IMG/VR virus record: IMGVR_UViG_3300044984_001453
Span: 1-32,168 of that record
Length of the DNA: 32,168 nucleotides
Origin: a virus
Strand: one strand, 5' to 3'
Shown here: positions 7,051 through 26,132 of the stretch, piece by piece
Layout of the letters: every line of letters starts with the position of its first letter
Position numbering within the stretch: position 1 is the first letter of the stretch
Made by a program: the position numbers and the translations under genes
Notes under the pieces: model-generated
The model's input: the letters and a program-made list of their open reading frames with translations, nothing else
Databases searched by the model: none
Told to the model about the DNA's origin: nothing

Positions 7051-10000
7051 CTATCGACGATTATACTGGTAATTGTATTCTATCAATAACTCTTTCTCGT
7101 CGTTCTCAAGTTCTTTTAGAAGTTGCTTATCACCTTCAATTCGCGCTTCATCTTGTTTTTTACGCAAATCTTTTACATCTTTGATAATAGACTTTGTTTC
7201 ATCGTAGAAATCAAGCATAGATTGATTGCGAGTTACAAATTTATCAATTGCCGCGTCATCCGCTAATTTCTCATACTTTTTAAACTTGTCGTTAATATCT
7301 TCAGCTTCTTTACGTTGCGTTGTATAAACCCGACGGTAGGCATCAATAGTATCTTCTTTAACAAAATTGGATACTAAGGGGAGTTTACCAACACTCATTT
7401 CTTCCCCGTTCATTGATGAAGTATAAAGCGAATTTACAAATTTATAAGCTTGCGTACCTACCGAACCTGTCAACGCATTTAATGTGTATTTCATAGATTC
7501 GGGAGAGATGTCAATTAAACCAGATTCAACTTTTGTTCCACCTGTCACTTTGTTCATCCATTTAGCAAAGTCTGCAAACATCGTACCTCTTGTTGTAGAC
7601 CATTCTTTTTCACTATCTGGAATAGTGGTATCGTAAACATCTTCTGGATAGATAGGTTTACCCCATTGATTTCTATTGTAATTTATAGAAAACGGTATTC
7701 TTCCCGCAGTAGGAATCAAACCGCTTATCAAATCTTTAGCGTTCCATTCACCCGACACCATTGGGTTTACATACGAGAAGTTATTAAAGAAAGACGACAT
7801 GAGTTTGTTAGTGATTTTTTCTGGATCACCGCCTAATTGAATTCTAGCAATGGCTGTACCCATATCTTTAAAGAAAGATAAGCCATAAGGCAGTTTCCAG
7901 TCTACGCGCAGACCTGTTTTTTCATCTAACGTCACGCTAAGGAATCTGGTTTTTTCTTCCTCTGGAATCAAGTCATCGTCCCCATCATCGCCACCAAGTA
8001 GCGCTATCAAATAACCTAACGTCACATAAGTAGAAAGCATTGCAGCCGCTTGCACTTTATGTTCACCGTTAATAGTTGCATCGACTAAGTTTTCAGTACC
8101 TTGAATAGACGCATTTAAGAATAAATACATTGCCCCAAGTTCACGACCAACTACACCTCGACGATTAAAGTTAATGGTCACATTACGCGCGATTTTAGCG
8201 GCTTCCTGTGGAGATTTACCGTTATCAATCGCTACTTTAAACGTAGACAATCGAGTTGCAGTTTCACCAACTTCCCCTAAGTATTTCAATAAGTTAGCTA
8301 ATTTATTTTCTACTACCATCAGTTTTAACTTATCTAATGGATATTCATAGAATTTGGTATCTAACATTTTTGATTTCAAAACAGCCAAGTTAAGATCATC
8401 GGCTTTCTGCTCAATGCTTGAAATAAATGCCGCACCAGATTTACCACCGTTATCATAATAAAGTCTAATTGCCTTATCCCATTCTGCGTTACCCGATGAG
8501 CCTTTCGCCATGTATTTGGCAATCTGTAGTGATGCCATTGGTGTTTTAGCAAGCACTGTTGAAGCGTATTTAAATCCATATCTCGCAGTATTAGTGTATA
8601 ACCCAACTAGCGGATCAACCATTACCCCATTTGCAATAATGAATGCTGGATTTAAAATAGTGTAAGAGTGACGCAAGAATCTATTGTAAGCCGCCATAGT
8701 TTTAAACATAGAGTAAATGTTTTCGTCACCTAATCTATTAAACGCTTGAACAAACTCCTCGTCTTTAACAAGAATACGAACTTGTTTACCATTTCGCCAA
8801 TAAGATATTTCCTCATTTTGGTCATAAGGTTTTCTCATCAAAGTAACTTGTGGCTCACCACCGACTTTGACAATTTCATATTCGCGTTTTTCTTGTCCTG
8901 TTCTTGCTGTTTCAGCTTCAACATAGCGACGTGCATCTCGGAGCGTATCACGAACACCAATTTCACTACCGTGGAAATACATAACGTATTGCGCTTTTGC
9001 TTTACCCATAATAGGTTTCATTGGCGTTACTTCATTTTCCCATAAGTTAATATCGGGATTATCCTCAACTAATTTATATAATGTGGATTGCACATACATT
9101 TTAGAAGATCGGATAACAGCACGTTCCAAATTCATAACAATGTTTTCGACAATTTGATTTGCGCGAGATTGTCTACCGAGTGCGCGTCTATCAAACTTGC
9201 CAGATATTGAGAACCCTTGTCCAATGTTACCACGGCTAGATTTTCTAGGTTTACCGGTAACTTCGTCAACTTCCTCAAAGCCTTTCATTGGTACATGATA
9301 GTCAGAAATACTATCCCATTCTTCTGCTTGTTCTGGCGAAATATCACCCGATGCCACTAAGATATTTTTAACTATGTTTTGAATTTTTTGCCAATCGTCA
9401 GTTAATTTTTCAAACTCAGCGTACTTATCACCCATTGTTTCTTTATATCTTTTAATAATAGCGGCTGACTGTTCATCAGTCATACCGCTACCGCCTTCAC
9501 CTAATTTACGGAACTTAGGATTGATGGATTGGATATAAGCGTTTCGACTTGGTGCGCCTTTAGCATAAAGAAGCAAACCGATTTCATCTTTGTTTACATT
9601 CATTTTAGCCATTCTGTCAATCAGCGGTTGAATGTAACGCTCTTTGAGTTTTTCCAATTGGTTAGCTGCGATATTACCTGCCGCTTCCATTGCAAGAACT
9701 ACGTCATTACTTTCATCAACCTTACCACCTTGTTCTCTAACTCTATCCATTACCACACGAATTCTTAACAAGTCATCTTGAATCCATTTGCGTAAGAACT
9801 GGAAGGATGATTCAGCAGGAATATTGAAACTCCCGTCTGGGTTTCTCTCAATATCAGCAAGTAAACCGCCAGTGCCTACTTTTTCAGAAGCCATTGGCAC
9901 GTTTACAATATCCCCGTTACCTTTGGCAATTTCAGAAAGCGCTTTTAATACAGCGTTATCGGATTTTAAACCTAATATTGATTTGGCTTTTTGAACAAAC

Positions 10001-13000
10001 TTGTTAAGCCATTGTCCTGCACGGCTAATCCAAGAATCTTTTGCTTCAAATTGCTTTTGCAGAATTCTCGAACCGTTTACCGCCCAAAACTCCGATGGGC
10101 TAAGTAATTGATAATGAGCATCATAATTTAAAACATTGTTAGAAAAGTCTTTTTCCATTTGCTTATTAGCTTCTGGATCACCTGTTGATGCACGGAGCAT
10201 ATTATTAATAGCTCTAACCACATTTGCATCTTTGGTATTTTTCAAAGTTCTATCAAGTTCTTTTTTCCATGCTTTGATAACTCCGTCTTGAACAGATTGC
10301 GGCATCATCGTTTCGGTATGATGCAGAATTTCATGTGCAGCCACCGTACCGCTTAAATTCTTGTTGGTAAATAGCGTGATGACTTTTGAAACAGGATTAT
10401 AAGTCCCCGCAGCACGACCTTCAATTTTACCCGATGTACCGATACCAAGTTCGTTTGCAAACTGAGGATTGTTTTCAAGTAACCATTGTGTCAAATCCGC
10501 TTCTTCTTTTGGAATAGTCCCATCAGCAACACCTTTACGCAATTTAGCAATAATCCAATTAGCACCACGTCTACGACCTGCCTCAATTTGACGAACATCT
10601 CTTGCGCTACGTTGCATCTCAAGACCGTCAATTACTTTTTGCACACCTAAACGATAACCTGCATCAGTTATTTTACCTGCTTCAAGTTGCTTTTCTAATC
10701 TGATTAACTTTTGACGCGCATTGATTTTAACTTGCTCTGGTACATTACTTTCGTATCTTGGTGGTAAATTAGATAGGGTTTCAAGATTTGATTTTTTAGG
10801 TTCAATTGAAATATCTTCAAGAGGTTTCTCTTTCCCTGCAACAGGTGGTAAGTCTTTCCAATACTGCTCGTGAATAGCGAAACCTTTTTCACCGTTAGCA
10901 GGATTTGTAAACGCCCATGTGTATTTATCAATTTCACGAGCTTGGTCGTGTGTTAAATCACTACGCAATTTAATCTTGATTGCTTTGCCTCTTTTTGTAA
11001 TGTAATCAATAACTGCATCTGGATCAGTAACCGATGTATCGCGTTTTGGTTTTGATGCTTTACCTTTTTTACCTTGTTCGTTTAATGTTGTTTCAACATC
11101 TGCACCAAACGGTTGTTCGTTTGTAGTCATTCTCGGCATAACTTCAATGGCATCCATCCGAGTAAACAAATCTTCAATATTATCAATGTCGCTCAAATCT
11201 AAATTACGAGATTGTGGAACATTGCCTGTTGAAGATTTTTCAATTACCACAATGCGAGTTCTAACGCCTGTCCCTGCGCGTTTAAAAGTAACATCGGGCA
11301 AGTTAATACTCATAATTAAATGCGCATCGGGATTAAGCATTTTATCTTTAGCATCTTTACCATAAAGGAATTGTTCAAGACGCTTTATTGCTTGCCCCTC
11401 TGGTATCAGCGCAACAATACGACCGCCTTCACGCAAATGCCCAAATGCTTTCGCAACATGGTCAATGGCAGTTTTACCTGCTGTGCCAAACGGAGGATTC
11501 ATTACAATCGCATCGTACTTGTTGATAATGTTCAGTTCTTCAAAGTTTTGACGTTTGATATCACCATCTTGAAATACCAATGCTAACCGTGAGTTGAGTT
11601 CAGAACTTGGCTCAATTGCTGTTCTTTCAGCATCTGGTCTAAACCATCTTGCAATTGCACCATGACCCGCACTCGGCTCTAGCATTTTCTCGCCTTCTTT
11701 GGCATCAACAAGGCGTGTCATTACTAAACCGACAGGTTCGGGCGTTGCAAAGTAATCCGTGCCTTCTGCTGACTTTGTACGCGCATTTTTCTGTTGTTGT
11801 GCGTAGTAATAAGAGCGAGCTTTATCCATCTCGGTAACTGCTTTAGCCGCAGCGCGATCTTTTTCTTTACCGCCTTTACCTTCGCCCTCATGCCCAACTG
11901 GGTAACTACCGCTTAATTCAAACGCATCAATAAACGCATCACGAAGTCCGCGAGCAAATTCACCTAATGCTAAGTTTTCAGCCGCGCTTGCACGTCCTGC
12001 AATGGTGCTTGCAAACGCCCATCTTTCCCAGTTTGTACCTGTGTTGACATATCGGAAAATAGCATCTGACTTTTGACCTACTCGGAAGATACGACCTTCT
12101 TGTTGAATAGCTGTGGTTGGCGCTGTTGGTAAACCGATATTGATAAGTACACGTTGGTGTTTACCGGTAGTATCATGGAACGACACACCTTCTTTTGCTG
12201 ACGCAGATTGCAGGAGCATAAGATTCTTGCCTGAATTATCGTCATTGAATTTCGCAACATCAGCGATACGAGTTTTACTGTCCCCGTTATATATCATTAC
12301 GTCATCGCCAAATTCCTCTTGGAATCGTTGAATAGGCGTAGTCATGCTTCCTTCAAGTGCTTTACCGCTTGCTAAGTCTGGGAAGGCTTGTTGAAATTGG
12401 CGATACTGCTGTTTAGTTGCATCGTCTGCTAAATTTATCCCTTGCACACCAAATGGGTTTTTGACCCCACCAACTTTATAGTCATGAAATACAATGACTT
12501 TTTTACCTGCTGCCAAGTAATCACGAATCATTGGGATAACTTCTTTGGCTTTAATTGCTTCAAGTAAAAATTTACGTTCAAGTCCACCAAATCGTTTATT
12601 GATAATCTGTGCTAAATCACGCGCATCATTATCCGCAAGCCATTGGAGCGCTTCATCAATACGTTGACCTACGGCTGATTCAGTTAGAATAAAACGACGA
12701 TCATAATCGTAATCCACATTAAGTGTTCTGGCAGATATTGCACCGGATCGTTTAAGTGTTTCATTAAACTGACGTTGCATATTACTGCGATCAACTTTTG
12801 CATCGGGTTGCGTTAATTTGTTATAACGCATTCTATAGCCAAGGTGTTGCATAAAGTATTTCTCTTTAGCACCACCAGAGTTATAGCCAGTTGATTCTTG
12901 GTCACCGTAGTCAAACAAATAACCTTCTGCATAATCGATATTGGATTCATGTGCAAAAGGCGTTGCTGACAATAGAACGACTTTAGTATTGTCATCCATT

Positions 13001-16000
13001 TTGTCCCATTCTACTTTTGCTTCAGCACGTTTCTTATCATACTCAGAATACTTATCGTCTTTGTATTGTTTACGACGGTCTATTTCATCTTGATAAGCAA
13101 TTTTAATTTCCGCACTATAAGCTGAAGCATCTCTAAATTTAGGTGATTCTAATTTGAAATCCCATATTGAAAACTTATCAAGATAACTTGCCGCTTTTAC
13201 TTTCTCCAGTTCAGCAATTAACTCTTTGTTTTTTCTATTAAACCAAAAAGTAAACCCAAGGTTATGATGTGTTAATGCGCGTAACTGATTGAGCGCATTG
13301 GTTACATCACCTTGTTCATTTTGCATTAAATACTGGGATTCATCAGTAACAATCAAATCCCAATCACGGTCTACTAGCGAATCATTGTCGCCAAAGTTTG
13401 CATAGGTTGTACCAACAACACCTTTGCCGGCATCCGTTTTATCTTTGAGGAGAGTAATATCAATCTTAAAGAATTTCTTAGCCGCTTTAATCCAAGAGTC
13501 TAAAATGTTTTGCGATGGTGCGACGACAATGATGTTGTCTTTACCTTGATCCACAAATCGACGCATAACACCAAGACCAGTAAAAGTTTTACCTGTTCCT
13601 GTACCATTGGTAAATAACACACCTTTTTCATCTTTAAATCGTTTCTCAGCAAACGCAATATCATTAGCTTGTCCATCATCTAAGAAAGGCATTTCTGTTT
13701 TGATATTGCTGATATCCGCTGTTTTTATTTCTACAGGTTGGGGTGTAGACCCTTTAATTGCTTTTGAAGGAAGTTGCGTAATTGGATTACTTCCTGCTCG
13801 TCTAACATCCATTCCTTTGAGGCTATCATCAAGAGTTCGTCCGCTGTCAGTATTTCCAGTAGCGCTGACCGTAGTTCCTCCTGCTTCGTTTCCAGTATAT
13901 AGTTCGTTATCGCTTTGTTCTCCACCAGTAAGGGCAGTAGATATTGAATCGCCACTGTCACTGTTGGCAATATTCCCTCTGCTACCCACTGGCTCGCTTG
14001 TTTGTCCAAATATGCGAGCATCGGTGTCTGCTTCATCATAAATAGGTTGCTCATCTCTTTCGTCAATAGCGTTTGCGTTTGAGATATATCGTTCCACACG
14101 CTTGTTGGTACTTGGTACATTTTCAGTTTCCTGTGTAGGTTGTTTTGTAATCGCTTCAATATCAGCTTTATCAATAGTGGTAACGTCATCCATACCATCA
14201 AAATTAGATGCGCGTGGATCAAACTTAACAGCAAGATACCAAGATTTTAGATAAGGCTTAACGGCTGTTCCTAAGTCTTCAATCATTGCGTTAGCATAAG
14301 CCGCAAAAGTTCTTGCACCTTTTTCAATGTGGTAACCGGCTAGGGTGATACCTGCTTGCATTAACTCTGGATCAAGACCGCTATTTAATTGCCCCAGTTT
14401 GCTTTTTAAGATAGCACGAGCCTTTTCAGCCGCATCATCTGTAAACACAGTGTTACCACTTGGCGCGGCTTTAGTTGACGCTTGTTCTTTAGGCTTACGC
14501 TCTGGTGCAAAGATATCTTTAGTCGTTGTCATACCGCGACCAAGCATCTCGTCAACTACGCTATCAACTTGATTATCAGCTTGGCGTTTGCGTTCTGCCG
14601 CTGCATCTTTTATCGCTTGTTCTTTCTCTGCGGCTTTTTGCGCTTCCTCGCGTTGCGTTACTTCTTGCTGCGTGTAGGTGCTGAGGATTTCGGGAGCGTT
14701 TTCTTTAATAGTTGCAATACTTGCATCTTTTGTTGTTTGGTCAGCATTTTCTTCTCCAATGGAATTCCAGAAGTCATCCGCTTCATCTTCTGATAGCGTG
14801 ACAATGTTAGTGAGTAATTGGTCAAAATCTTTGGGTGTTTCTGCCGCTTGGATTTCATCAATTGTTGTCGGATTACCCGACGCTACTTTTAATAATTCTT
14901 TAGCTAGTTCTTTTTGCTCTGCTTCAAACGCTTTGAATTCTTCGACTTGCTCAAGCGCCATTTGATGTTCAAGTCCTTGAAACGTATAAACTTGTTGCCC
15001 TATACCAAACAACTTTGCATCTAATGATTGGCGCAATTGAGCCACTAAATCATTTCCACCGCTTACATCAAAGTCATAGCCGCGTAAAATTTCAGCCATG
15101 CCGTCAAAAGATTGTGAACTTGTTTTAGTAAAGTAACGACCTTTAAAATCAGAAAACCCTTCTCGGTTTGCTATCTCACGATTAATGCCGCCAAGTTTAC
15201 CGATAACAACTTCGATAGGCTCTAAACCGGTTATTGCTCTTAGGTTATTAGCAGCGGGTTTCTTTTTAGCAACAGGTTGTACAGCGGCTTGTTCTGCTAC
15301 AGGTTGCACAGTTGATTGTTCTTGGCGTTTTTTATTTTTAAACGCTTCATCAACAATGAGGCTATCCTCAAAGTCTGTTATTTTTTTATACGCTACTTCT
15401 TTTTCAGAATTAGTGGTAGCCTCGTTATAAGCCTTGTAAATTTCCTTTTTATACTCGTCCCCATAGTTATTTATAAACCATTGATTTCCAATATCTTTTA
15501 ACTCTTTATTTAAAATAGGTAATTCTAAATTGGCGCGTTTATCATTGGGATTTAAAGCGCTTCTTTTTTCGTAATTTGCAATTTCCTTTTTTATTCGAGA
15601 AACTCTATCCTCAAAATATTGATTGGATCGTTTATTGTAAACCACCTCTTGTTTAGGTAGAGCCTGTGCTTTTACCTTTTCAACGTCAGTATAACTAATG
15701 TTTTCATACTTACTTTCTAATGCGTTTGCAATATCAGCTTTCTTTTTGCTCTCATCTGGATTGGTAGCACGAGTTGATGCGTCGCGCAATGCTTCCACTT
15801 TACTCGGAGTTTGATTAAAAGGCGCTGTAAAATCATTTTCAGCAATCGCATTAATTACCTTTGGGTATAGGTCTGGATGTGTTTTTGCTGTAACGTGTGG
15901 AAGGAGGTAATTAGCAAATCGTTTAATGTTTAACTTATCAACATCTTGATTTCCAGCTTGAACGCTTTTTACAACATCACTGGCTTGATTAAGCTCGGCA

Positions 16001-19000
16001 ACTTTGTTTTGCGATCCAGTGATACTTTGCTCACGCCATTTTAAAATCTGCTCAATTAACTGTGGCTTGTTGATGTAGGATTTATTAACGCCTAATGGTT
16101 GAGCCATTTCGCGTAATTGCTTAACGCTAAGTCCTTGTAATTCCTCAGAAGTTTTGTCTTTGAGCATTTCTCTGTTTTGCTGAATCGTTCTTACTTTGTT
16201 TAGCAAATCAGTTTTTGTACCACTTGTTGATGCTCCAATAAAGGTAGCAAGTGTTTTCAAATCTTCGTGATTGAATTGTTGTAACACGTCCGCGTCTGAC
16301 ATTTGAGTAATATCAGTTTTCAGAATTCGATTGCTTACGCGATAAGGTTTTGGATGAGATGCTTTATATTCATCCAATGTCATATTTTGATAGGCGGTTT
16401 TATCTGTTGGCGTTGTTGATGCTGCTTCGATATTTCTTTTTTGTACTAAATACCCATCATTTTGCCAAGGTACAACTCTGTATTCATTTTTAGGCTCTAT
16501 CTTTTCCATAGACTTCGCCATTTGATTTGCATCACTTAAAGAATTGGTTGGAAATTGAAAAACCCATTCTCCCGCGGCATACGCCTCCTCTCTTTTTTTA
16601 TTAGCCGATTCTCTTTCTAATTTATTCAGTGTGTTTTTTATAGCAATCTCAGCTTTGCGAGTTCCTTCAAAATGACGTTCATTATCTGATGTTTCTTCAG
16701 CATAGATTGATTGCGCTTCTTCTGGCGTAGTAGCTTCTTTAATTCGCGTAACACGGTCAGCATTTCTCGTTTCATAATCTGCTGTTGGCGTTTCTGTAGG
16801 TTTTAAATTCTCACTATGCCACGCTTTATTCCATTCTTCCAATGCTTGTCGTCTGCTTTCATCATTAGGTGCATTTTCAATATATTGCGCATTAAATTCC
16901 TTATCAAGCACAGGTGCTTTGATACCTGCTTTAAATGCAGATCGCCCCATTTCAGTTGGCGTTTGCACTACAGGCGTTAATACTTTAGATAACTCTTTCA
17001 CTGTATCTGAAGTAAGTAGACCTGTGGACTTGGCGTTATTGTAAATACCCATAGCGTCGTCTTTGCTAATAGTATTATTTTCAATTTCCCCAAGTGCTTT
17101 TTTAATATCATTATTAATCAGATACTTAGCAAAAATATTTGGGTTATTAGCTGAAAATTCATTTCGTTTACTTTGAGTTTCCTCATAATTAACTGGCGCA
17201 TTTACAACTGGATTAGGATCAACAAATGTATTTTTCTCAATAGTTCCCCATCCACTTGTATTTTTGCGACTTGGTTCGTAAATCGGAGCAGGGTACATTA
17301 TATCCATGAAATCATAATGCGATAAGGTTTCAGCTCCATTAACACCTGCTTCCACATAAGGTATTAATTTGATTACATTGCCGTTTTCATCTTTTTCAAC
17401 AGATTTAATTGGAATTCTGTAGCCATCATAAGAAATTAATACATCACCTGCTTCTATTGAATTGAACGCATCTATAGTATTTTTCTCACCTATATAATCG
17501 CCTTTTGTAATGTCTTTTAAATTAATTACTGTTGGTGTTTCTGCTGTTGGTATTTCTGGCGCTTGTTCAATTGGCGTAATGAGATTAGTGTAATGATCCC
17601 TTTGCGCTTTGTTGAGCGAATACTTCTCACCTGTTGGCAAATACAGCATCGAGCCTTTTAGTTCTGCACCACCTTGCGCAACGGCTTGACCAATGAAGTC
17701 TAAACTTTCTTGTGTTGCGTCTAGTTTATCTGACTTGGCTTTTACAGGTTCTTCAACTATAGGTTCAACTACAGGTGTTGCGGCTTGGATGTTTGCTTGC
17801 GTTTGTGCTTCTGTTTGAACAACATCATGTCCAAAGGTGTTTGCTTCCACTACATTATTAAACGTCGCTACAGGATCATCTGAACCCATAATATCCGTAG
17901 CCGCTGTTTCGTTATCAACTACTGGCGCAGAGGTATCTGGCGCATTGCCTTTACGAGTTAAGTTTTCATCCCTAAAGATGTTTTTGTATTCCTCTAAAGT
18001 GCTAGTGGTTTGATCGCTTGCAGGTATTGTTGGTTCACTTGTTGGTAATCCACCTTGCAACATTGATTCTGCAATCGGTGTACCTTCGGGTTGAGGTTTG
18101 TCTTGGCGTTGTATATTTTTAGCAGCCATATCTGCAAGGCTATATCCGCCTCCCATTAAGCCACCGGTAACTAAGCCAATAGCCGCTGCGTTGGATACGC
18201 CTTCCAAAATATCCGGCTTATCTAAAGCAATGTTTTGAAGTATCTGCTCTTGCGCTGATTGTGGTAATTCTTCAAGTACACCTTCAGTAAACACACCGCC
18301 TAATGCTTGTTTGAGAACTGATTTATTAGCAACATCTACCGAGCCTGTACCGTTTGATAAAGTATCAAAATCAGCAATACCTAATTTCTTGGCAACTACA
18401 CCGCCTACACCAGCTAAGAACGCATCACCTGCACCCGCAGCAACTGCTAACGCTGATTGCTTACCTGTCAATAAACCTGTTTCAGTTTCTTGACGTGTCC
18501 CTTCGGCTTGTTGTCCTGCGCCTACTACTAATTCGCCTGCGGCAGGTGCTACAAATGAAGATGCTATACCTAAACCGCCAAGTGCTTTTACTGCTCCGCC
18601 AATTCGCCCACCAACATAAGATGTAGGTAATGATTCAAGCGCTGTATTAACGGTTGCAGATGGATTAGTAACGGCTGATTTTAACGTATCTGTAAATGTA
18701 TCTTGTGACTGTATTTCTTTTTGAGCGGCTTGTTCTTCGGGAGATTGTTGAGCAGTCAGATAATCTTTAGCCGCTTTATAATCAATACCTTTTTCTTCTA
18801 GGTATTTACCAGCTTCACCGCTACTGGCAATGTCGGCAATACCTGTAATGAATTCGGGAACACCTATTAAGCCTTTCGATAATGCTAATGATTGGTCATA
18901 AGCACGCTTACGGACAGGCTCAACAACATAGTCCATAAGAACATTGGCAGTTTCCTTAGCAGACTGATAGGCTTTATCAGTAAATGATATATCGCTTTGC

Positions 19001-19197
19001 TCTGCTACAGGTTGCTCTGGCGTTTGTGCTACGGGAGTTTCTACAGGCTCATTTACTTTCGCAGGTTCTTGAGAAGTTGCGCTTAATGTATCCCAATTAG
19101 AAACCAAATAGTCTAATGCTTCTTCTTGGGTTGCGCCTTCTGGCGCTTCAATATCGTATTCTTTTCCGTCTGGTGCTGCGAAAGTAAAAATAGCCAT
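7051..19197 (-). CDS. Giant DarB-like polyvalent protein: helicase, adenine methylase, zincin
   Basis: A 4048-residue multidomain protein. Visible order: residues 1-46, a small domain (FTFAAPDGKEYDIEAPEGAT) also common at the N-terminus of phage internal proteins; 60-370, Gly/Ala-rich hydrophobic stretches that could insert in membrane; about 970-1055, two SAP-like motifs (second around SVKQLREMAQPLGV); about 1590-1660, the LNSG/DPEL/AGYHIEKGA segment frequent in polyvalent proteins; 1840-2450, SF2 helicase with Walker A GTGTGKT (1865-1871), DESQ (1952-1955), SAT (2077-2079) and motif VI QQEGRIFRVGQ (around 2369); 2480-2640, N6-adenine methylase with EPSAGHG (2507) and NPPF (2567-2570); 2900-3060, a zincin with HEILHH (2955-2960); 3100-3950, a polyvalent-associated region resembling LPD38 with LNPAF (3515-3519); and a C-terminal coiled coil. 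The ribosome binding site is AAGGA. P1 DarB, its relative, is packaged, injected and protects DNA from type I restriction. That role here is inferred. Confidence 0.88.
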   Translation of the reverse strand: MAIFTFAAPDGKEYDIEAPEGATQEEALDYLVSNWDTLSATSQEPAKVNEPVETPVAQTPEQPVAEQSDISFTDKAYQSAKETANVLMDYVVEPVRKRAYDQSLALSKGLIGVPEFITGIADIASSGEAGKYLEEKGIDYKAAKDYLTAQQSPEEQAAQKEIQSQDTFTDTLKSAVTNPSATVNTALESLPTSYVGGRIGGAVKALGGLGIASSFVAPAAGELVVGAGQQAEGTRQETETGLLTGKQSALAVAAGAGDAFLAGVGGVVAKKLGIADFDTLSNGTGSVDVANKSVLKQALGGVFTEGVLEELPQSAQEQILQNIALDKPDILEGVSNAAAIGLVTGGLMGGGYSLADMAAKNIQRQDKPQPEGTPIAESMLQGGLPTSEPTIPASDQTTSTLEEYKNIFRDENLTRKGNAPDTSAPVVDNETAATDIMGSDDPVATFNNVVEANTFGHDVVQTEAQTQANIQAATPVVEPIVEEPVKAKSDKLDATQESLDFIGQAVAQGGAELKGSMLYLPTGEKYSLNKAQRDHYTNLITPIEQAPEIPTAETPTVINLKDITKGDYIGEKNTIDAFNSIEAGDVLISYDGYRIPIKSVEKDENGNVIKLIPYVEAGVNGAETLSHYDFMDIMYPAPIYEPSRKNTSGWGTIEKNTFVDPNPVVNAPVNYEETQSKRNEFSANNPNIFAKYLINNDIKKALGEIENNTISKDDAMGIYNNAKSTGLLTSDTVKELSKVLTPVVQTPTEMGRSAFKAGIKAPVLDKEFNAQYIENAPNDESRRQALEEWNKAWHSENLKPTETPTADYETRNADRVTRIKEATTPEEAQSIYAEETSDNERHFEGTRKAEIAIKNTLNKLERESANKKREEAYAAGEWVFQFPTNSLSDANQMAKSMEKIEPKNEYRVVPWQNDGYLVQKRNIEAASTTPTDKTAYQNMTLDEYKASHPKPYRVSNRILKTDITQMSDADVLQQFNHEDLKTLATFIGASTSGTKTDLLNKVRTIQQNREMLKDKTSEELQGLSVKQLREMAQPLGVNKSYINKPQLIEQILKWREQSITGSQNKVAELNQASDVVKSVQAGNQDVDKLNIKRFANYLLPHVTAKTHPDLYPKVINAIAENDFTAPFNQTPSKVEALRDASTRATNPDESKKKADIANALESKYENISYTDVEKVKAQALPKQEVVYNKRSNQYFEDRVSRIKKEIANYEKRSALNPNDKRANLELPILNKELKDIGNQWFINNYGDEYKKEIYKAYNEATTNSEKEVAYKKITDFEDSLIVDEAFKNKKRQEQSTVQPVAEQAAVQPVAKKKPAANNLRAITGLEPIEVVIGKLGGINREIANREGFSDFKGRYFTKTSSQSFDGMAEILRGYDFDVSGGNDLVAQLRQSLDAKLFGIGQQVYTFQGLEHQMALEQVEEFKAFEAEQKELAKELLKVASGNPTTIDEIQAAETPKDFDQLLTNIVTLSEDEADDFWNSIGEENADQTTKDASIATIKENAPEILSTYTQQEVTQREEAQKAAEKEQAIKDAAAERKRQADNQVDSVVDEMLGRGMTTTKDIFAPERKPKEQASTKAAPSGNTVFTDDAAEKARAILKSKLGQLNSGLDPELMQAGITLAGYHIEKGARTFAAYANAMIEDLGTAVKPYLKSWYLAVKFDPRASNFDGMDDVTTIDKADIEAITKQPTQETENVPSTNKRVERYISNANAIDERDEQPIYDEADTDARIFGQTSEPVGSRGNIANSDSGDSISTALTGGEQSDNELYTGNEAGGTTVSATGNTDSGRTLDDSLKGMDVRRAGSNPITQLPSKAIKGSTPQPVEIKTADISNIKTEMPFLDDGQANDIAFAEKRFKDEKGVLFTNGTGTGKTFTGLGVMRRFVDQGKDNIIVVAPSQNILDSWIKAAKKFFKIDITLLKDKTDAGKGVVGTTYANFGDNDSLVDRDWDLIVTDESQYLMQNEQGDVTNALNQLRALTHHNLGFTFWFNRKNKELIAELEKVKAASYLDKFSIWDFKLESPKFRDASAYSAEIKIAYQDEIDRRKQYKDDKYSEYDKKRAEAKVEWDKMDDNTKVVLLSATPFAHESNIDYAEGYLFDYGDQESTGYNSGGAKEKYFMQHLGYRMRYNKLTQPDAKVDRSNMQRQFNETLKRSGAISARTLNVDYDYDRRFILTESAVGQRIDEALQWLADNDARDLAQIINKRFGGLERKFLLEAIKAKEVIPMIRDYLAAGKKVIVFHDYKVGGVKNPFGVQGINLADDATKQQYRQFQQAFPDLASGKALEGSMTTPIQRFQEEFGDDVMIYNGDSKTRIADVAKFNDDNSGKNLMLLQSASAKEGVSFHDTTGKHQRVLINIGLPTAPTTAIQQEGRIFRVGQKSDAIFRYVNTGTNWERWAFASTIAGRASAAENLALGEFARGLRDAFIDAFELSGSYPVGHEGEGKGGKEKDRAAAKAVTEMDKARSYYYAQQQKNARTKSAEGTDYFATPEPVGLVMTRLVDAKEGEKMLEPSAGHGAIARWFRPDAERTAIEPSSELNSRLALVFQDGDIKRQNFEELNIINKYDAIVMNPPFGTAGKTAIDHVAKAFGHLREGGRIVALIPEGQAIKRLEQFLYGKDAKDKMLNPDAHLIMSINLPDVTFKRAGTGVRTRIVVIEKSSTGNVPQSRNLDLSDIDNIEDLFTRMDAIEVMPRMTTNEQPFGADVETTLNEQGKKGKASKPKRDTSVTDPDAVIDYITKRGKAIKIKLRSDLTHDQAREIDKYTWAFTNPANGEKGFAIHEQYWKDLPPVAGKEKPLEDISIEPKKSNLETLSNLPPRYESNVPEQVKINARQKLIRLEKQLEAGKITDAGYRLGVQKVIDGLEMQRSARDVRQIEAGRRRGANWIIAKLRKGVADGTIPKEEADLTQWLLENNPQFANELGIGTSGKIEGRAAGTYNPVSKVITLFTNKNLSGTVAAHEILHHTETMMPQSVQDGVIKAWKKELDRTLKNTKDANVVRAINNMLRASTGDPEANKQMEKDFSNNVLNYDAHYQLLSPSEFWAVNGSRILQKQFEAKDSWISRAGQWLNKFVQKAKSILGLKSDNAVLKALSEIAKGNGDIVNVPMASEKVGTGGLLADIERNPDGSFNIPAESSFQFLRKWIQDDLLRIRVVMDRVREQGGKVDESNDVVLAMEAAGNIAANQLEKLKERYIQPLIDRMAKMNVNKDEIGLLLYAKGAPSRNAYIQSINPKFRKLGEGGSGMTDEQSAAIIKRYKETMGDKYAEFEKLTDDWQKIQNIVKNILVASGDISPEQAEEWDSISDYHVPMKGFEEVDEVTGKPRKSSRGNIGQGFSISGKFDRRALGRQSRANQIVENIVMNLERAVIRSSKMYVQSTLYKLVEDNPDINLWENEVTPMKPIMGKAKAQYVMYFHGSEIGVRDTLRDARRYVEAETARTGQEKREYEIVKVGGEPQVTLMRKPYDQNEEISYWRNGKQVRILVKDEEFVQAFNRLGDENIYSMFKTMAAYNRFLRHSYTILNPAFIIANGVMVDPLVGLYTNTARYGFKYASTVLAKTPMASLQIAKYMAKGSSGNAEWDKAIRLYYDNGGKSGAAFISSIEQKADDLNLAVLKSKMLDTKFYEYPLDKLKLMVVENKLANLLKYLGEVGETATRLSTFKVAIDNGKSPQEAAKIARNVTINFNRRGVVGRELGAMYLFLNASIQGTENLVDATINGEHKVQAAAMLSTYVTLGYLIALLGGDDGDDDLIPEEEKTRFLSVTLDEKTGLRVDWKLPYGLSFFKDMGTAIARIQLGGDPEKITNKLMSSFFNNFSYVNPMVSGEWNAKDLISGLIPTAGRIPFSINYNRNQWGKPIYPEDVYDTTIPDSEKEWSTTRGTMFADFAKWMNKVTGGTKVESGLIDISPESMKYTLNALTGSVGTQAYKFVNSLYTSSMNGEEMSVGKLPLVSNFVKEDTIDAYRRVYTTQRKEAEDINDKFKKYEKLADDAAIDKFVTRNQSMLDFYDETKSIIKDVKDLRKKQDEARIEGDKQLLKELENDEKELLIEYNYQYNRR

Positions 19198-22276: not shown

Positions 22277-22330
22277 ATGGCTATGAAGAAAGGCAAAGGC
22301 GGTAAAGGCGGTGGCGGTAAAAAATGCTAA
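22277..22330 (+). CDS. 17-residue Gly/Lys peptide with near-perfect ribosome binding site
   Basis: The frame reads MAMKKGKGGKGGGGKKC and stops at TAA. The reason to believe it is translated is the preceding AGAGGAGGTGAT, which matches the full 16S anti-Shine-Dalgarno sequence over about nine bases, 8 bases before the ATG. It is flanked by a TATAAT box and an intrinsic terminator (22367-22402), making a compact unit of about 150 bases. The peptide is extremely basic and flexible and ends in Cys; it could bind nucleic acid or act as a small structural peptide. I know of no named family. The transcript could also be mainly a small RNA. Confidence 0.6.
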   Translation: MAMKKGKGGKGGGGKKC

Positions 22331-22366: not shown

Positions 22367-22402
22367 AAGCCTGTCGGGTTTAATATCCGACAGGCTTTTT
22401 TG
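22367..22402 (+). terminator. Intrinsic terminator after 17-aa peptide gene
   Basis: AAGCCTGTCGG at 22367-22377 and CCGACAGGCTT at 22387-22397 form an 11-bp stem with a 9-base loop, followed by a T run (22396-22401). It is a strong rho-independent terminator and separates the peptide unit from the small-gene array. Confidence 0.9.
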
Positions 22403-22589: not shown

Positions 22590-22618
22590 TTGATTAATTA
22601 AATTAGGTCGGATATTCT
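22590..22618 (+). promoter_or_regulatory. Second candidate promoter for small-gene array
   Basis: TTGATT (22590-22595) and TATTCT (22613-22618) with the ideal 17-base spacer, about 50 bases before the first gene of the array. Four of six matches in each box. Confidence 0.35.
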
Positions 22619-22674: not shown

Positions 22675-22896
22675 ATGAAAGCAGACAAAAGTAAATGGGT
22701 TCAAAAAATTCACGATCACGCGATGGCGAGATATGAGAAAGGCTGGGATTGGATCATAGAATGCTACCCTCAAGAAGATGTTTTAGAGTTGTTAGATGAA
22801 ACAGTAACCACCTATGCTCAAGCAATAAAAGAGTTAGGTGAGTATGTAAAACTAAATAAAGAACAAGAATCAAATGTTTCGTGGGGAGAATGGTAA
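22675..22896 (+). CDS. Small hypothetical protein, first of array
   Basis: A 73-residue acidic protein (MKADKSKWVQKIHDHAMARYEKG...) with Trp/Tyr-rich helices (GWDWIIECYPQEDVLELLDE) and a C-terminal VSWGEW. The ribosome binding site is ACCGGAGAG, 8 bases before ATG, the motif shared through the array. No family recognised. The position, directly after the candidate promoters, suggests early expression. Small acidic early proteins often act on host factors, but that is speculation here. Confidence 0.8.
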   Translation: MKADKSKWVQKIHDHAMARYEKGWDWIIECYPQEDVLELLDETVTTYAQAIKELGEYVKLNKEQESNVSWGEW

Positions 22897-22898
22897 AA

Positions 22899-22953
22899 AT
22901 AGTTCAGCGTGTAACGGCTTGATTTAAGCCGTTATGCAGTGCGCTATTGCACT
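22899..22953 (+). ncRNA. Intergenic double-hairpin element, copy 1
   Basis: It begins with ATAGTTCAGCGTGTA and folds by eye into two hairpins that touch each other. Stem 1 is GTGTAACGGCTT (22909-22920) with AAGCCGTTATGC (22926-22937), 12 pairs including two G-U. Stem 2 is AGTGCG (22938-22943) with TGCACT (22948-22953) around a CTAT loop. It lies between two genes and ends 4 bases before ACCGGAGAG, the ribosome binding site of the next gene. A second copy at 24796-24851 keeps the architecture and loop while changing paired bases on both sides. Typed as RNA because of the covariation; no known family is claimed. Confidence 0.7.
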
Positions 22954-22972
22954 ACTTAACCGGAGAGAGAAA

Positions 22973-23227
22973 ATGAAAAAATTTAAAATAGCAGTAACTA
23001 ATATGGGTGGTTTTAACCAAGTTGGCAGAATCGCGGTCAGAGGCGACTTTGCTTCTGATGGCAAGATTAATGGAGGAGACTTCATTGCACATAAACGTGC
23101 TGATGCAGACCGACAAGCTAGAGACTGGGCAGACTGGAATTCGCAGTTTGATGATCAGCATGGTGTTGCCTTTCTGGTTTGCCGCAAAACCCCCCGCAAA
23201 GGGTGGGTAGTAGTAGCGCAGTTTTAA
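22973..23227 (+). CDS. Small hypothetical protein
   Basis: An 84-residue protein starting MKKFKIAVTNMGGFNQVGRIAVRGD. The start is fixed at the ATG at 22973, which follows ACCGGAGAGAG. An upstream in-frame ATG at 22934 lies inside the hairpin element and has no ribosome binding site. The sequence looks beta-rich with Arg/Asp-rich centre (HKRADADRQARDWADWNSQFDD) and ends in a strand, GWVVVAQF. No family recognised. Confidence 0.75.
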   Translation: MKKFKIAVTNMGGFNQVGRIAVRGDFASDGKINGGDFIAHKRADADRQARDWADWNSQFDDQHGVAFLVCRKTPRKGWVVVAQF

Positions 23228-23258
23228 CTTTATAGAACATAGTAAACCGGAGAACAAA

Positions 23259-23864
23259 ATGCCTTATAAACTTCACATTACGATGGGTACGGCTAAGATG
23301 GAAGGGATTCCGTCTTTTAACACAAGTGCCACATTGAATCCTTTCTGCATCAAGATGAGCCAATCGGCTATCAAAGAATTGATTTGTACAAAATGCTATG
23401 CAATCAACACTGAAAAGCGTTATCCAAACTTGGTAAACGCATTAGAACGCAACGTCGATTTATATCAACGCATTTTGCTCGATACGGAGTTACCGCGATT
23501 GAATTACACCATTGCGAGATTCGATTCATTCGGAGAAGTGCATAACGCAATCCACGTTTTGAATTATTTTAATATTGCCAGAAAAAACCCCGAAACAGTT
23601 TTTGGCTTCTGGACAAAACGCAAAGACTTAATTAAAAAGGTTTTAAAGATGGTTAGCAAACCCGCTAACGTGATTTTGATTCATTCCAGCAACAAAAAGA
23701 ACAAAGTTGATAAATTGCCTGCTGGATACGACAAAGTATTCACAGCGCACAAAAAATCAGATTTAAAACCTAGTATTACAATCAATTGCAGTAAATCATG
23801 TAATGACTGCCGTTTATGCTACAGTCACAATGATGTGGTATTTATTAACGAAATAATGAAATAA
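23259..23864 (+). CDS. Cys-rich phage protein resembling Gp88 family
   Basis: A 201-residue protein (start MPYKLHITMGTAKMEGIPSF) of a type found in many phages and resembling the mycobacteriophage gene-product-88 family. Seven cysteines stand out: C30, C43 and C46 (CTKCYA), then C177, C181, C184 and C187 (CSKSCNDCRLCY). The C-x3-C-x2-C spacing at 177-184 is the same as the radical-SAM cluster motif, though its C-terminal place is unusual, so a metal or Fe-S site is likely but the chemistry is unknown. Between them are conserved-looking segments ARFDSFGEV, FNIARKNP and FGFWTKRKDL. The ribosome binding site is ACCGGAGAAC. It is the largest protein of the array. Confidence 0.75.
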   Translation: MPYKLHITMGTAKMEGIPSFNTSATLNPFCIKMSQSAIKELICTKCYAINTEKRYPNLVNALERNVDLYQRILLDTELPRLNYTIARFDSFGEVHNAIHVLNYFNIARKNPETVFGFWTKRKDLIKKVLKMVSKPANVILIHSSNKKNKVDKLPAGYDKVFTAHKKSDLKPSITINCSKSCNDCRLCYSHNDVVFINEIMK

Positions 23865-23879
23865 GATCGGAGAACTAAA

Positions 23880-24113
23880 ATGAAAGCAAATAGAACCTAT
23901 CAAAACAATTTAGCAAGTCAACGCTGGAACTCATCGTTAATCTGCTGCTCATGGTCGGTATTTTACAAGGGCGAGTATATCTGTGGCGCTCATTATGACG
24001 ACACTGAAATACTATCAGTCTGTTTTCCTTGCGGCTTGGTGATGTATAGCAAGTCAATGGATGTAATGAAAAAATATGTCAGAGCTTACAAAGTAGGGAG
24101 ATTGGAAGCATGA
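23880..24113 (+). CDS. Small Cys-containing hypothetical protein
   Basis: A 77-residue protein with ATCGGAGAAC before its ATG. It contains SSLICCSWSVFYKGEYICG and VCFPCGLVM (residues about 18-55), so CC, a single Cys and a CxxC pair could bind a metal, or the cysteines could simply reflect a cytosolic fold. The C-terminal helix is basic (MKKYVRAYKVGRLEA). The stop overlaps the next ATG (ATGA). No family recognised. Confidence 0.75.
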   Translation: MKANRTYQNNLASQRWNSSLICCSWSVFYKGEYICGAHYDDTEILSVCFPCGLVMYSKSMDVMKKYVRAYKVGRLEA

Positions 24114-24352
24114 AAATGCAACAGGCGCACTACAACATGATGAAACAGGCAATTTCAGAATTGCCGCGCGATCAAATGCTGGCATTCAAAGCAAATGATT
24201 TAGGTAAGAACAAAGAACGCTTTTTCGTATGGGGACTTTTCAAAGCCGCCAAGTTACATTTCACTGCTACTGATTACCTTTATTTGTATCTTGAAGACAG
24301 TCACATAGAAACTGCACTGAAACGCATTGCTAAAGAACTAAATTACATTTAA
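24110..24352 (+). CDS. Small helical hypothetical protein
   Basis: An 80-residue protein, probably all-helical (MKMQQAHYNMMKQAISELPRD, then TALKRIAKELNYI), with a Phe/Trp/Tyr-rich centre. Its ATG overlaps the previous stop by four bases, and GGGAGATTGGAAG before it supplies the ribosome binding site, so it is translationally coupled to the preceding gene. No known family. Confidence 0.75.
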   Translation: MKMQQAHYNMMKQAISELPRDQMLAFKANDLGKNKERFFVWGLFKAAKLHFTATDYLYLYLEDSHIETALKRIAKELNYI

Positions 24353-24365
24353 CTGGAGAATAGAT

Positions 24366-24524
24366 ATGAACGAAAAAGTATGGACGTATGAAGAGTTTGT
24401 AAACACGATGATCTTAGAAGATATTCAAGGTTGGGCGTATGAAGGTATTAGCATTCGCGAACTGTACAAAGATTATTTAGAATCCCAACAAGAAAAGCCT
24501 TACTTCCCAGAGTGGGCACAATAA
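24366..24524 (+). CDS. 52-residue acidic protein
   Basis: MNEKVWTYEEFVNTMILEDI begins a 52-residue frame rich in Glu, Trp and Tyr and ending YFPEWAQ. ACTGGAGAA lies 7 bases before its ATG, a variant of the motif shared by the array, and it starts 13 bases after the previous gene. The strong net negative charge and aromatic content resemble small phage proteins that bind host proteins. No function can be assigned. Confidence 0.7.
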   Translation: MNEKVWTYEEFVNTMILEDIQGWAYEGISIRELYKDYLESQQEKPYFPEWAQ

Positions 24525-24533
24525 GCATTTTTA

Positions 24534-24553
24534 GCGCTGTGTAACAGCAGCGC
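24534..24553 (+). other. Intergenic hairpin in small-gene array
   Basis: GCGCTG (24534-24539) and CAGCGC (24548-24553) form a 6-bp stem. The loop and flank contain GTGTAAC, also present at the start of the double-hairpin element copy 1, so this may be a reduced relative. It is followed by CATTTTAACTAAACCGGAGAG, the same leader tail as at 22646-22667. Confidence 0.5.
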
Positions 24554-24580
24554 ACATTTTAACTAAACCGGAGAGCAAAA

Positions 24581-24796
24581 ATGAGAAATTTAACTTGGAA
24601 CGACTTAAACAAAATCGGTACACAAGACAGCGGTAAACGCTGGTATCCAGTGGTAGAGTTCAGAGAGTATTTTGAAAGCTACAGAGCGCCTTCTCGCGCA
24701 TTCCCTTATAGCTATGCTAAAGCGGCAATGACTAAAAAATTTGCAAAATGGTGTGAAGAAAATAGACCCGAATTCGCACAAAAAATAGGCGCTTGA
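24581..24796 (+). CDS. Small basic hypothetical protein
   Basis: A 71-residue basic, aromatic-rich protein (MRNLTWNDLNKIGTQDSGKR, then SYAKAAMTKKFAKWCEENRPEFAQ). ACCGGAGAGC lies 7 bases before its ATG. The frame is preceded by a hairpin and followed directly by the second double-hairpin element. No family recognised. Confidence 0.75.
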   Translation: MRNLTWNDLNKIGTQDSGKRWYPVVEFREYFESYRAPSRAFPYSYAKAAMTKKFAKWCEENRPEFAQKIGA

Positions 24797-24851
24797 TAGT
24801 TCAGCGTGTAGCGCTTTAGAATTAGAGCGCTATACACTGCACTATTGCAGT
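24796..24851 (+). ncRNA. Intergenic double-hairpin element, copy 2
   Basis: It shares the 5' sequence ATAGTTCAGCGTGTA with copy 1 (22899-22953). Stem 1 is GTGTAGCGCTTTA (24806-24818) with TAGAGCGCTATAC (24823-24835), 13 pairs around GAAT. Stem 2, touching it, is ACTGCA (24836-24841) with TGCAGT (24846-24851) around the same CTAT loop. Relative to copy 1, at least three pairs in stem 1 and one in stem 2 have changed on both sides, and two G-U pairs have become Watson-Crick, so the structure rather than the sequence is conserved. The next ribosome binding site follows 22 bases later. Confidence 0.7.
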
Positions 24852-24881
24852 AATACATTTAAATTAAACCGGAGATATAAC

Positions 24882-24977
24882 ATGAATACTTTTTATGATG
24901 TAGTTGTTGGATCAATCTTAACTACAATTTTCACTGTAGTTTTTGTTGCCGAGCTGATTATCATTTGGGGAGAATAA
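24882..24977 (+). CDS. 31-residue single-span membrane peptide
   Basis: MNTFYDVVVGSILTTIFTVV and on to a stop after IIIWGE: residues 7-29 are a continuous hydrophobic span with no charged residue except one Glu near the end. ACCGGAGATATAAC before the ATG is the shared array motif, which supports real translation despite the size. A small inner-membrane peptide is the natural reading. It could be holin-like or act on a host membrane protein; neither is shown. The next gene's ribosome binding site (GGGGAGAATAAGCC) is built from its last codons. Confidence 0.7.
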   Translation: MNTFYDVVVGSILTTIFTVVFVAELIIIWGE

Positions 24978-24980
24978 GCC

Positions 24981-25223
24981 ATGCCATCATTCACATTAGA
25001 TACTGCTCACGAATTAACATCAAATTGCCGCGCTAGTTTCCCGAACCTGCGTAGCCGATTGATTTTATCAATTGGTGAATGGGGATTGGTACACGGATCT
25101 AAAACAGACTACTTTACAACAGATGGTAAAAAAATAGGCTTTAAAATTACACGCCATTATGACCGTAAACAATTGCCAATCTATAACAACAAAACACGCA
25201 TTTACATTTATACCGGAGAATAG
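24981..25223 (+). CDS. Small hypothetical protein after membrane peptide
   Basis: An 80-residue protein beginning MPSFTLDTAHELTSNCRASF, with a basic beta-rich second half (KKIGFKITRHYDRKQLPIYN, TRIYIYTGE). It starts 3 bases after the 31-aa membrane peptide and reads its ribosome binding site from that gene's end, so the pair is probably translated together. No family recognised. Confidence 0.75.
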   Translation: MPSFTLDTAHELTSNCRASFPNLRSRLILSIGEWGLVHGSKTDYFTTDGKKIGFKITRHYDRKQLPIYNNKTRIYIYTGE

Positions 25224-25225
25224 AC

Positions 25226-25381
25226 ATGATGATGAGCTACAAACAATATATTGAATCACTGCCAAGTGATTACCTGCAAATGCTGTACGATGAAGACGTG
25301 CATTTGTTCCAAGCATACAGAGAGTACGTTATCGCGTACAAGTCACTGGAAGCAGAGTACGGGGAGATTAAGTCATGTTGA
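25226..25381 (+). CDS. 51-residue acidic hypothetical protein
   Basis: The frame opens with three Met codons (MMMSYKQYIESLPSDYLQML) and ends GEIKSC. ACCGGAGAA precedes the first ATG by 7 bases. Tyr and Glu rich, probably helical. It overlaps the start of the next gene by 7 bases, and the ribosome binding site for that gene (GGGGAG) is within its last codons, so the two are coupled. Confidence 0.7.
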   Translation: MMMSYKQYIESLPSDYLQMLYDEDVHLFQAYREYVIAYKSLEAEYGEIKSC

Positions 25382-25785
25382 TACCGAAAAAAGCTATGAA
25401 GGTCAAAGTCCCCAAGGCGCTCAAAGTAAACAGGGGAAGACCTAAAGTAGATCCGAAGAAAAAGTGCAGACATTACCAACTATCGCTCGCTGGTGATTTG
25501 ATAGACTTTATCGAAGGCGCTGGACTTAGATCAAAAAGCAAATTCATTAGTATGGCAATCAGAACCGCCATCGAGTTTAAAAAGTATCGGTCACTGCCGT
25601 ATGACAGATGTTTAGATTGTGGGTGTGATATGACAGCGCCACTTGACCCCATGGACGGAGCAAAAACATACGTCGATGAAGATGGAAGAGTCTTAGATGT
25701 TTTTGTTCAATGTGAGGGTTGCGGTGGACGTGCTGGTCACAGGCAATATGATCCGAGAAAACATGGAATAGAACCCGAAGCATAA
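25375..25785 (+). CDS. Ribbon-helix-helix plus zinc-ribbon DNA-binding protein
   Basis: A 136-residue protein. Residues 1-33 are very basic (MLIPKKAMKVKVPKALKVNR, GRPKVDPKKKC). Residues 34-71 (YQLSLAGDLIDFIEGAG, then SKSKFISMAIRTAIEF) have the strand-helix-helix pattern of ribbon-helix-helix regulators. Residues 79-116 hold two Cys pairs, CLDC at 79-82 and CEGC at 113-116, a likely zinc ribbon. GGGGAG before the ATG at 25375 supports the long start; a second Met at residue 8 is possible. As the last gene before the terminator and the 11-mer repeats, it is a natural candidate to bind nearby DNA, but the target is unknown. Confidence 0.75.
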   Translation: MLIPKKAMKVKVPKALKVNRGRPKVDPKKKCRHYQLSLAGDLIDFIEGAGLRSKSKFISMAIRTAIEFKKYRSLPYDRCLDCGCDMTAPLDPMDGAKTYVDEDGRVLDVFVQCEGCGGRAGHRQYDPRKHGIEPEA

Positions 25786-25792
25786 AAATAGA

Positions 25793-25816
25793 GCCGGTTT
25801 AATCACCGGCTTTTTT
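25793..25816 (+). terminator. Intrinsic terminator of the small-gene array
   Basis: GCCGGT (25793-25798) and ACCGGC (25805-25810) pair around a 6-base loop and are followed by six T. It ends the rightward array 8 bases after its last stop codon. The tail TTTTTTGTATCTGC resembles that of the terminator at 22367-22402 (TTTTTTGTGTCTGC). Confidence 0.85.
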
Positions 25817-25837: not shown

Positions 25838-26132
25838 TGAGACATGGGACAAATGAGACAGGTACTTTCCTATTTATATATATTTTATAAATAACACTAT
25901 AAAACCACTCTATTTTCAACTACAAAACTGTTTTCCCAATATCATATAATTTATATTATTACCTGTCTCACCTGTCTCAAAATAAGTACAGACCAAGTAA
26001 TTCAAGGGCTAGAGGGTGAGACAGGTACTTTTTATTTACCTGTCTCTGAGACATAGTTACCTGTCTCACTTTTATTTTTTCAGTTTTAAAAATGAGACAG
26101 GTAAAATTTTAAACTTTTTAAAAATGAGACAA
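25838..26132. repeat. Bidirectional TGAGACAGGTA repeats, candidate replication origin
   Basis: About ten full or partial copies of TGAGACAGGTA lie between the convergent genes. Plus orientation: 25838-25844 (partial), 25854-25864, 26017-26027, 26047-26053 (partial), 26093-26103 and 26125-26132 (partial). Minus orientation: 25960-25970, 25970-25979, 26037-26046 and 26058-26068. Neighbouring opposite copies can form strong hairpins, for example 26018-26027 with 26037-26046 (10 pairs) and 26057-26068 with 26093-26104 (12 pairs). Between 25865 and 25959 the DNA is extremely AT-rich. Iterons plus an AT-rich unwinding stretch next to a primase-helicase gene is the classic layout of a replication origin; a multi-operator regulatory site or a 3' mRNA structure is an alternative. 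Confidence 0.65.

Follow-up and report, generated by a model that had tools for sequence, protein, structure and literature searches.

A covarying double-hairpin RNA element at gene joints in a small-gene operon of freshwater phages

What holds two copies of a double hairpin in place between the small genes of a phage operon? The earlier note on this locus described the repeats and read their paired differences as selection for structure. Our analysis confirms its observation and partly supports its interpretation. We examined the locus within the window, by which we mean the whole 32168-base IMG/VR virus record, and in the related phages that share the element.

The operon, the element and its carriers

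Genes on the minus strand of the window encode Terminase_3, an SU10-type portal and a PriCT_2/DUF5906 primase. A plus-strand run of small genes extends from 22675 to 25785; most begin with CCGGAGA-type ribosome sites, and they form one unit bracketed by one conserved promoter and one terminator. Both copies of the element, E1 and E2, lie inside this unit. Its features are as follows.

22590..22618, plus strand: operon promoter, TTGATT-17 nt-TATTCT, kept in the clade; a leader with a small hairpin comes next
22675..22896, plus strand: gene upstream of E1, 73 aa, with its stop TAA ending three bases 5' of the element's ATAG
22899..22953, plus strand: copy E1, with conserved ATAGTTCAGCG at 22899-22909; 83.5 bits with covariance model R1
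22909-22921 with 22925-22937, plus strand: E1 stem 1, 13 pairs
22938-22943 with 22948-22953, plus strand: E1 hairpin 2, loop CTAT
22973..23227, plus strand: gene downstream of E1 in the window phage, 84 aa, at a position held by different genes in other phages
23259..23864, plus strand: GP88-like gene (Pfam PF17338), in relatives the usual gene downstream of E1
24534..24553, plus strand: single hairpin S, GCGCTG-TGTAACAG-CAGCGC, of a separate intercistronic hairpin family
24581..24796, plus strand: gene upstream of E2, 71 aa, with its stop TGA overlapping the element's first base (TGATAG)
24796..24851, plus strand: copy E2, anatomy as E1; 78.6 bits with model R1
24806-24818 with 24823-24835, plus strand: E2 stem 1
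24836-24841 with 24846-24851, plus strand: E2 hairpin 2
24883..24978, plus strand: 31-aa membrane-like gene downstream of E2, found in 26/26 phages compared
25790..25813, plus strand: intrinsic terminator closing the operon

Sequence and alignment agree that both window copies (22899-22953 and 24796-24851) consist of ATAGTTCAGCGTGTA followed by two flush hairpins with no base between them, as had been described. Counting its basal G-U pairs, stem 1 has 13 pairs, and hairpin 2 has six; stem 1 pairs are numbered from the basal G-C pair (alignment columns 14-45). The 5' segment and the CUAU loop are invariant. Between E1 and E2, two-sided changes occur at stem 1 pairs 6, 9 and 10 and at hairpin 2 pair 2, exactly where they had been claimed, and no pair is lost. 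Wobble changes are present too; the claimed count of one G-U change per stem was too low, stem 1 alone having three one-sided changes (U.G/U-A, U-A/U.G and G.U/A-U). Folding z scores of the two copies are -4.1 and -5.4.

The earlier note had proposed a covariance-model search, and model R1, built on 26 sequences including the window copies, found the element in 30 other viral (IMG/VR) contigs, two copies being the rule and E1 missing in some. Two MAG contigs also carry it, a Methylococcaceae MAG from Lake Erken with two copies and a Methylomonas MAG with one, which brings the family to 30 distinct sequences. An exact pattern search of viral contigs yielded 28 contigs; almost every one is a relative that the primase had led to independently. 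In a species-level genome collection the pattern occurred in 12 contigs, 2 of which held true copies by the model. Phages normally have two copies, with none elsewhere in the 14 contigs of up to 58 kb that were searched whole. The carriers form a family of freshwater phages, an uncultivated clade, whose host is probably a methanotroph, although phage contigs can be misbinned.

Searches beyond this clade returned no further members. A distant blastn comparison with phage records gave no match for the region, a 16-base 5' pattern search for members of other sequence gave only chance matches outside the clade, and a profile of the 136-aa gene described below recovered the same phages only. MW202426, which has the closest portal gene among phage records, has no copy, and among about 200 genomes from the family of the Methylomonas MAG only the two MAGs carry the element. 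Rfam 15 placed no family above its gathering threshold anywhere in the window, and a permissive threshold gave only weak matches away from the element. The statement that no described family has this form agrees with Rfam, and we regard the element as a well-supported structured RNA family absent from that database.

Other parts of the window also drew attention. The 136-aa protein encoded at 25375-25785, present in 26/26 phages compared, has a basic N-terminus and CxxC-type pairs. It has no Pfam match; by eye it resembles a ribbon-helix-helix plus zinc-binding protein, and it is a possible regulator of the element-bearing operon. At 25854-26102, in the stretch that separates the primase gene from the operon terminator, the repeat ACCTGTCTCA occurs in six exact copies plus one with a mismatch, in both orientations. 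The window holds 9 matches with at most one mismatch versus 1.4 expected, and 2-6 copies are also present in L003, L005, L009, L012, L035, L084 and L091; the repeat appears iteron- or operator-like. A tiny ORF, MAMKKGKGGKGGGGKKC, lies at 22278-22330 behind a strong ribosome site and is followed by a terminator-like hairpin near 22370-22400. On the minus strand, 7051-19197 encodes a 4048-aa protein with helicase-like stretches (ResIII, strawberry notch C-terminal), a weak methyltransferase match and LPD38.

Pairing, strand and placement

Across 26 sequences, standard pairs fill 99.0% of pair cells, versus 91.4% when the sequences are shuffled and 25-50% when the structure is slid, and two-sided changes occur at six pairs. 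Because related sequences can mislead shuffles, we used a tree-based null that keeps the tree and the per-branch substitutions (30 sequences, 1891 column pairs). The three best of the 1891 column pairs all belong to stem 1 (E = 0.03, 0.15 and 0.83; about 0.0003, 0.0015 and 0.008 when hand-scaled for the 19 proposed pairs). Two pairs of hairpin 2 rank next among the proposed pairs, at about 0.09 and 0.12 on the same scale. Thus, selection for pairing is firmly supported for stem 1 and probable for hairpin 2; the covariation significance test suggested earlier came out clearly for the first and more weakly, at about 0.1, for the second.

The wobble pairs U15.G44, G16.U43 and G51.U56 are each retained in 23-25 of the 26 sequences, and further G.U/U.G variants occur at other pairs, including those of stem 1. 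C.A appears at one pair only, C50-G57, in a few E1 copies. Since the conserved wobbles would be A-C mismatches on the other strand, the functional strand is the gene-sense RNA. Collectively, the retained pairs, the stem 1 covariation beyond the tree-based null and the sense-strand G-U pairs bear out the claim of selection for structure and support the conclusion that the element acts in the gene-sense transcript as a selected RNA structure.

The element is placed with equal regularity. In most copies its ATAG contains the stop TAG of the upstream gene (TAA in one lineage), and in the others an upstream TAA or TGA lies at most six bases 5' of it. In nearly all copies, behind unrelated upstream genes, the stop codon is at most 6 nt from the 5' edge, and the next gene's ribosome site is directly 3' of the element. 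Up to seven gene families are found upstream at element joints and six downstream, with no detectable similarity. It is an unusual placement rule that the element begins at the stop codon of whichever gene precedes. The operon has about ten joints, only two of which carry the element, and each copy keeps its place across relatives. In L003, L017, L028, L033, L037 and L039, E1 is absent and the gene usually downstream of it directly follows the promoter, behind a short leader of other sequence, mostly with a small hairpin. Because neighbours vary and E1 is lost when its downstream gene is promoter-proximal, we consider the element bound to a joint inside the operon and not to a gene.

Several candidate functions were set aside. 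A gene-specific operator was rejected because the element stays while neighbouring genes change; the suggestion that it controls the next gene survives in a generic sense only, flanking genes differing between phages. It lacks the U-tract that, with a hairpin, defines an intrinsic terminator, and is not among the predicted terminators. An internal promoter was likewise rejected, as the one promoter-like match overlapping window E2 has hexamers that are not conserved in relatives. Readthrough or frameshifting would yield no product of note, a second stop following three codons after the UAG (TTC AGC GTG TAA/TAG), and a bypass of the T4 gene 60 type was dismissed on the ground that different codons (AAA, GAA, CAA, AGA) precede the UAG.

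A second kind of hairpin also lies between cistrons. The earlier note had offered 24534-24553 as a possible single-hairpin relative of the element; the hairpin is real and belongs to another family, that with the UGUAACAG loop. Family S has a covarying G+C stem of 6-7 pairs and an 8-nt loop, UGUAACAG or UGUAACAA, and its sites lie just upstream of ribosome sites, also in other, unrelated phages. Besides the window hairpin, members are found at L004 9910, L011 9729 and 7681, L020 8009, L084 5542, L122-L131 and L134 1502. In L020 an S hairpin fills the joint in place of E1, and in L084 one has come with the new gene that separates E2 from the 31-aa gene. In the 8-nt S loop, positions 3-6 read UAAC; the T4 gp43 translational operator has a UAAC loop too (PMC3014915), a likeness that is only a lead.

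What the element may do

Placement regardless of the flanking genes, structure on the sense strand, a stop codon at the edge and the loss of E1 when its downstream gene is promoter-proximal argue for a generic boundary that operates after transcription, and we hold it very probable that the element is a post-transcriptional intercistronic RNA module of this kind. As such it would divide the operon message into three segments, the promoter-proximal variable genes, the GP88-like block and the block of the 31-aa gene, and would do so in cis, whichever genes flank it. Should it be a portable boundary, it would illustrate how phages can insert or swap small genes in the operon with the rest of expression undisturbed, and it would be usable as an insulator part. 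A host endonuclease may cut the message at the element, the hairpins may shield the new ends, or both, and the cut or protected segments would then differ in abundance and lifetime. This reading, an mRNA processing or end-protection boundary, is our tentative preference, put at somewhat under an even chance. A precedent exists in T4 gene 32, whose RNase E sites are conserved across five T4 relatives although the upstream gene order has changed (PMC3014915). Several points weigh against our reading: a nuclease site is not confidently predictable here, the rod-like fold that would suit RNase III (discussed below) is not clearly beyond chance, and a plain protecting hairpin would need neither an invariant 5' segment nor an invariant CUAU loop.

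Stop codons at or close to the 5' edge of nearly all copies, behind unrelated genes, suggest as the main rival a translational insulator, in which stable structure directly after the stop codon would keep a ribosome that terminates there from scanning onward into the gene that follows, leaving that gene to be translated solely from its own CCGGAGA site. According to a review, coupling is lower where structure is predicted directly 3' of the upstream stop codon (PMC12548453), as an insulator would have it, and the absence of E1 where there is no upstream gene fits equally. The invariant 5' strand and loop are left unexplained by insulation, as is the choice of two among about ten operon joints. 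We rate it as possible but rather doubtful; processing or end protection and insulation can both be true.

Variation around E1 bears on the suggestion of a recombination seed, a repeated element supplying homology for exchange of small-gene cassettes. Genes on either side of E1 vary among relatives, and a few chimeric copies exist: the 3' half of L017 E2 is of the E1 type, and in L029 a single base distinguishes E1 from E2. Nevertheless, copies keep their place, E1 and E2 are no more alike within a genome than between genomes (46.2 versus 46.1 of 52 identical, p = 0.39), E1-E1 and E2-E2 comparisons show greater similarity than E1-E2, and homology requires neither base pairing nor G-U pairs on one strand. 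The suggestion is thus weakly supported, and we judge such a joint very unlikely to be what the element is for.

The conserved 5' strand has a possible partner. AAUAGU can pair with GCUAUU of hairpin 2, lengthening stem 1 into a rod and excluding hairpin 2, and RNAfold prefers this rod over the double hairpin.

22898..22948, plus strand: predicted E1 rod fold, AAUAGU (22898-22903) with GCUAUU (22943-22948); -24.0 versus -22.8 kcal/mol for two hairpins
24795..24846, plus strand: predicted E2 rod fold; -29.1 versus -25.7 kcal/mol for two hairpins

The rod is predicted to be lower in 24/26 sequences, usually by 1-4 kcal/mol, under an energy model without the coaxial stacking of flush hairpins, which would favour the two-hairpin fold. 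When the 5' strand is blocked to the reach of a terminating ribosome, hairpin 2 has a probability of at least 0.89 in 30/30 sequences. Most variants of the conserved 5' strand keep rod pairing. However, shuffled flanks equal or beat the rod in 8-15% of cases for typical copies (p about 0.09 for window E1 and about 0.02 for window E2), and the outer rod stem has no two-sided change and a broken pair in one lineage. Flank pairing in the predicted rod of 20-22 pairs is not clearly above chance. In E2 of L003, a close relative (12734-12795, minus strand), the rod is perfect over 25 pairs, by way of four clustered changes in the 5' arm, and looks like the product of a template-switch event during replication.

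From these folds one can derive a ribosome-gated, bistable RNA, which would adopt the rod when untranslated and the two hairpins when a ribosome terminating at the UAG covers the 5' strand, the two shapes differing in nuclease or protein recognition. Conservation of the 5' strand, which otherwise lacks an explanation, would in large part be accounted for by the rod. The usually lower energy of the rod, the formation of hairpin 2 once the 5' strand is blocked, the pairing kept by most 5'-strand variants and the perfect L003 rod are consistent with it, and stem 1 has at its base weak tandem G-U pairs, where the ribosome edge would lie. Given the shuffled flanks, the outer stem and the missing stacking term, we think it unlikely. 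Were it true, a reusable module would let translation of one cistron bear on how the following cistron is processed or expressed, and the element offers a concrete case in which to ask if a terminating ribosome selects one of two RNA folds.

L003 E2 also recalls a different origin, that of a DNA palindrome kept by template-switch correction of its arms, through mutation and not RNA selection; clustered 5'-arm changes that make a palindrome perfect are what quasipalindrome correction predicts. All other copies retain G-U pairs and rod mismatches that correction would erase, and location at gene joints together with sequence conservation requires selection, which leaves this the least probable of the explanations weighed.

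Comparison with known phage systems

RNase III signals of T7-like phages are irregular hairpins of about 60 nt between operon genes, before the next ribosome site. The element is likewise intercistronic in a phage operon and just before a ribosome site. It differs in consisting of two flush covarying hairpins with a stop codon inside, whereas the T7-type signal is one irregular hairpin. Of its folds, only the predicted rod of 20-22 pairs would be long enough to match the T7-type duplex of about 20 pairs or more, and the element may be considered no more than a candidate for working as such a signal.

HK022 put RNA has two adjacent hairpins and acts from near the start of early transcripts. The element resembles it in having two neighbouring hairpins in a phage transcript, a resemblance that raises the prospect of antitermination, in which nascent two-hairpin RNA would make RNA polymerase ignore terminators. 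Its position is not that of put, close to the transcript start: about 2.2 kb separates window E2 from the promoter, six phages lack E1 and copies sit at stop codons. We judge antitermination very unlikely.

PeSL cassettes of T4-like phages, according to the work cited by PMC4503421, are repeated promoter/stem-loop elements between small genes in variable regions. The element shares with them a repeated stem-loop between small genes in a variable region; unlike them it has no conserved promoter and no terminator U-tract, and its copies stay in place. The earlier analogy to stem-loop promoter cassettes fails on this account, no promoter part being conserved. With the RNase E sites of T4 gene 32 (PMC3014915) the element has in common that it is kept in relatives while upstream genes change, and it is set apart from them by a covarying double hairpin, none being described there. 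It is best classed among the phage intercistronic RNA elements, as a new variant.
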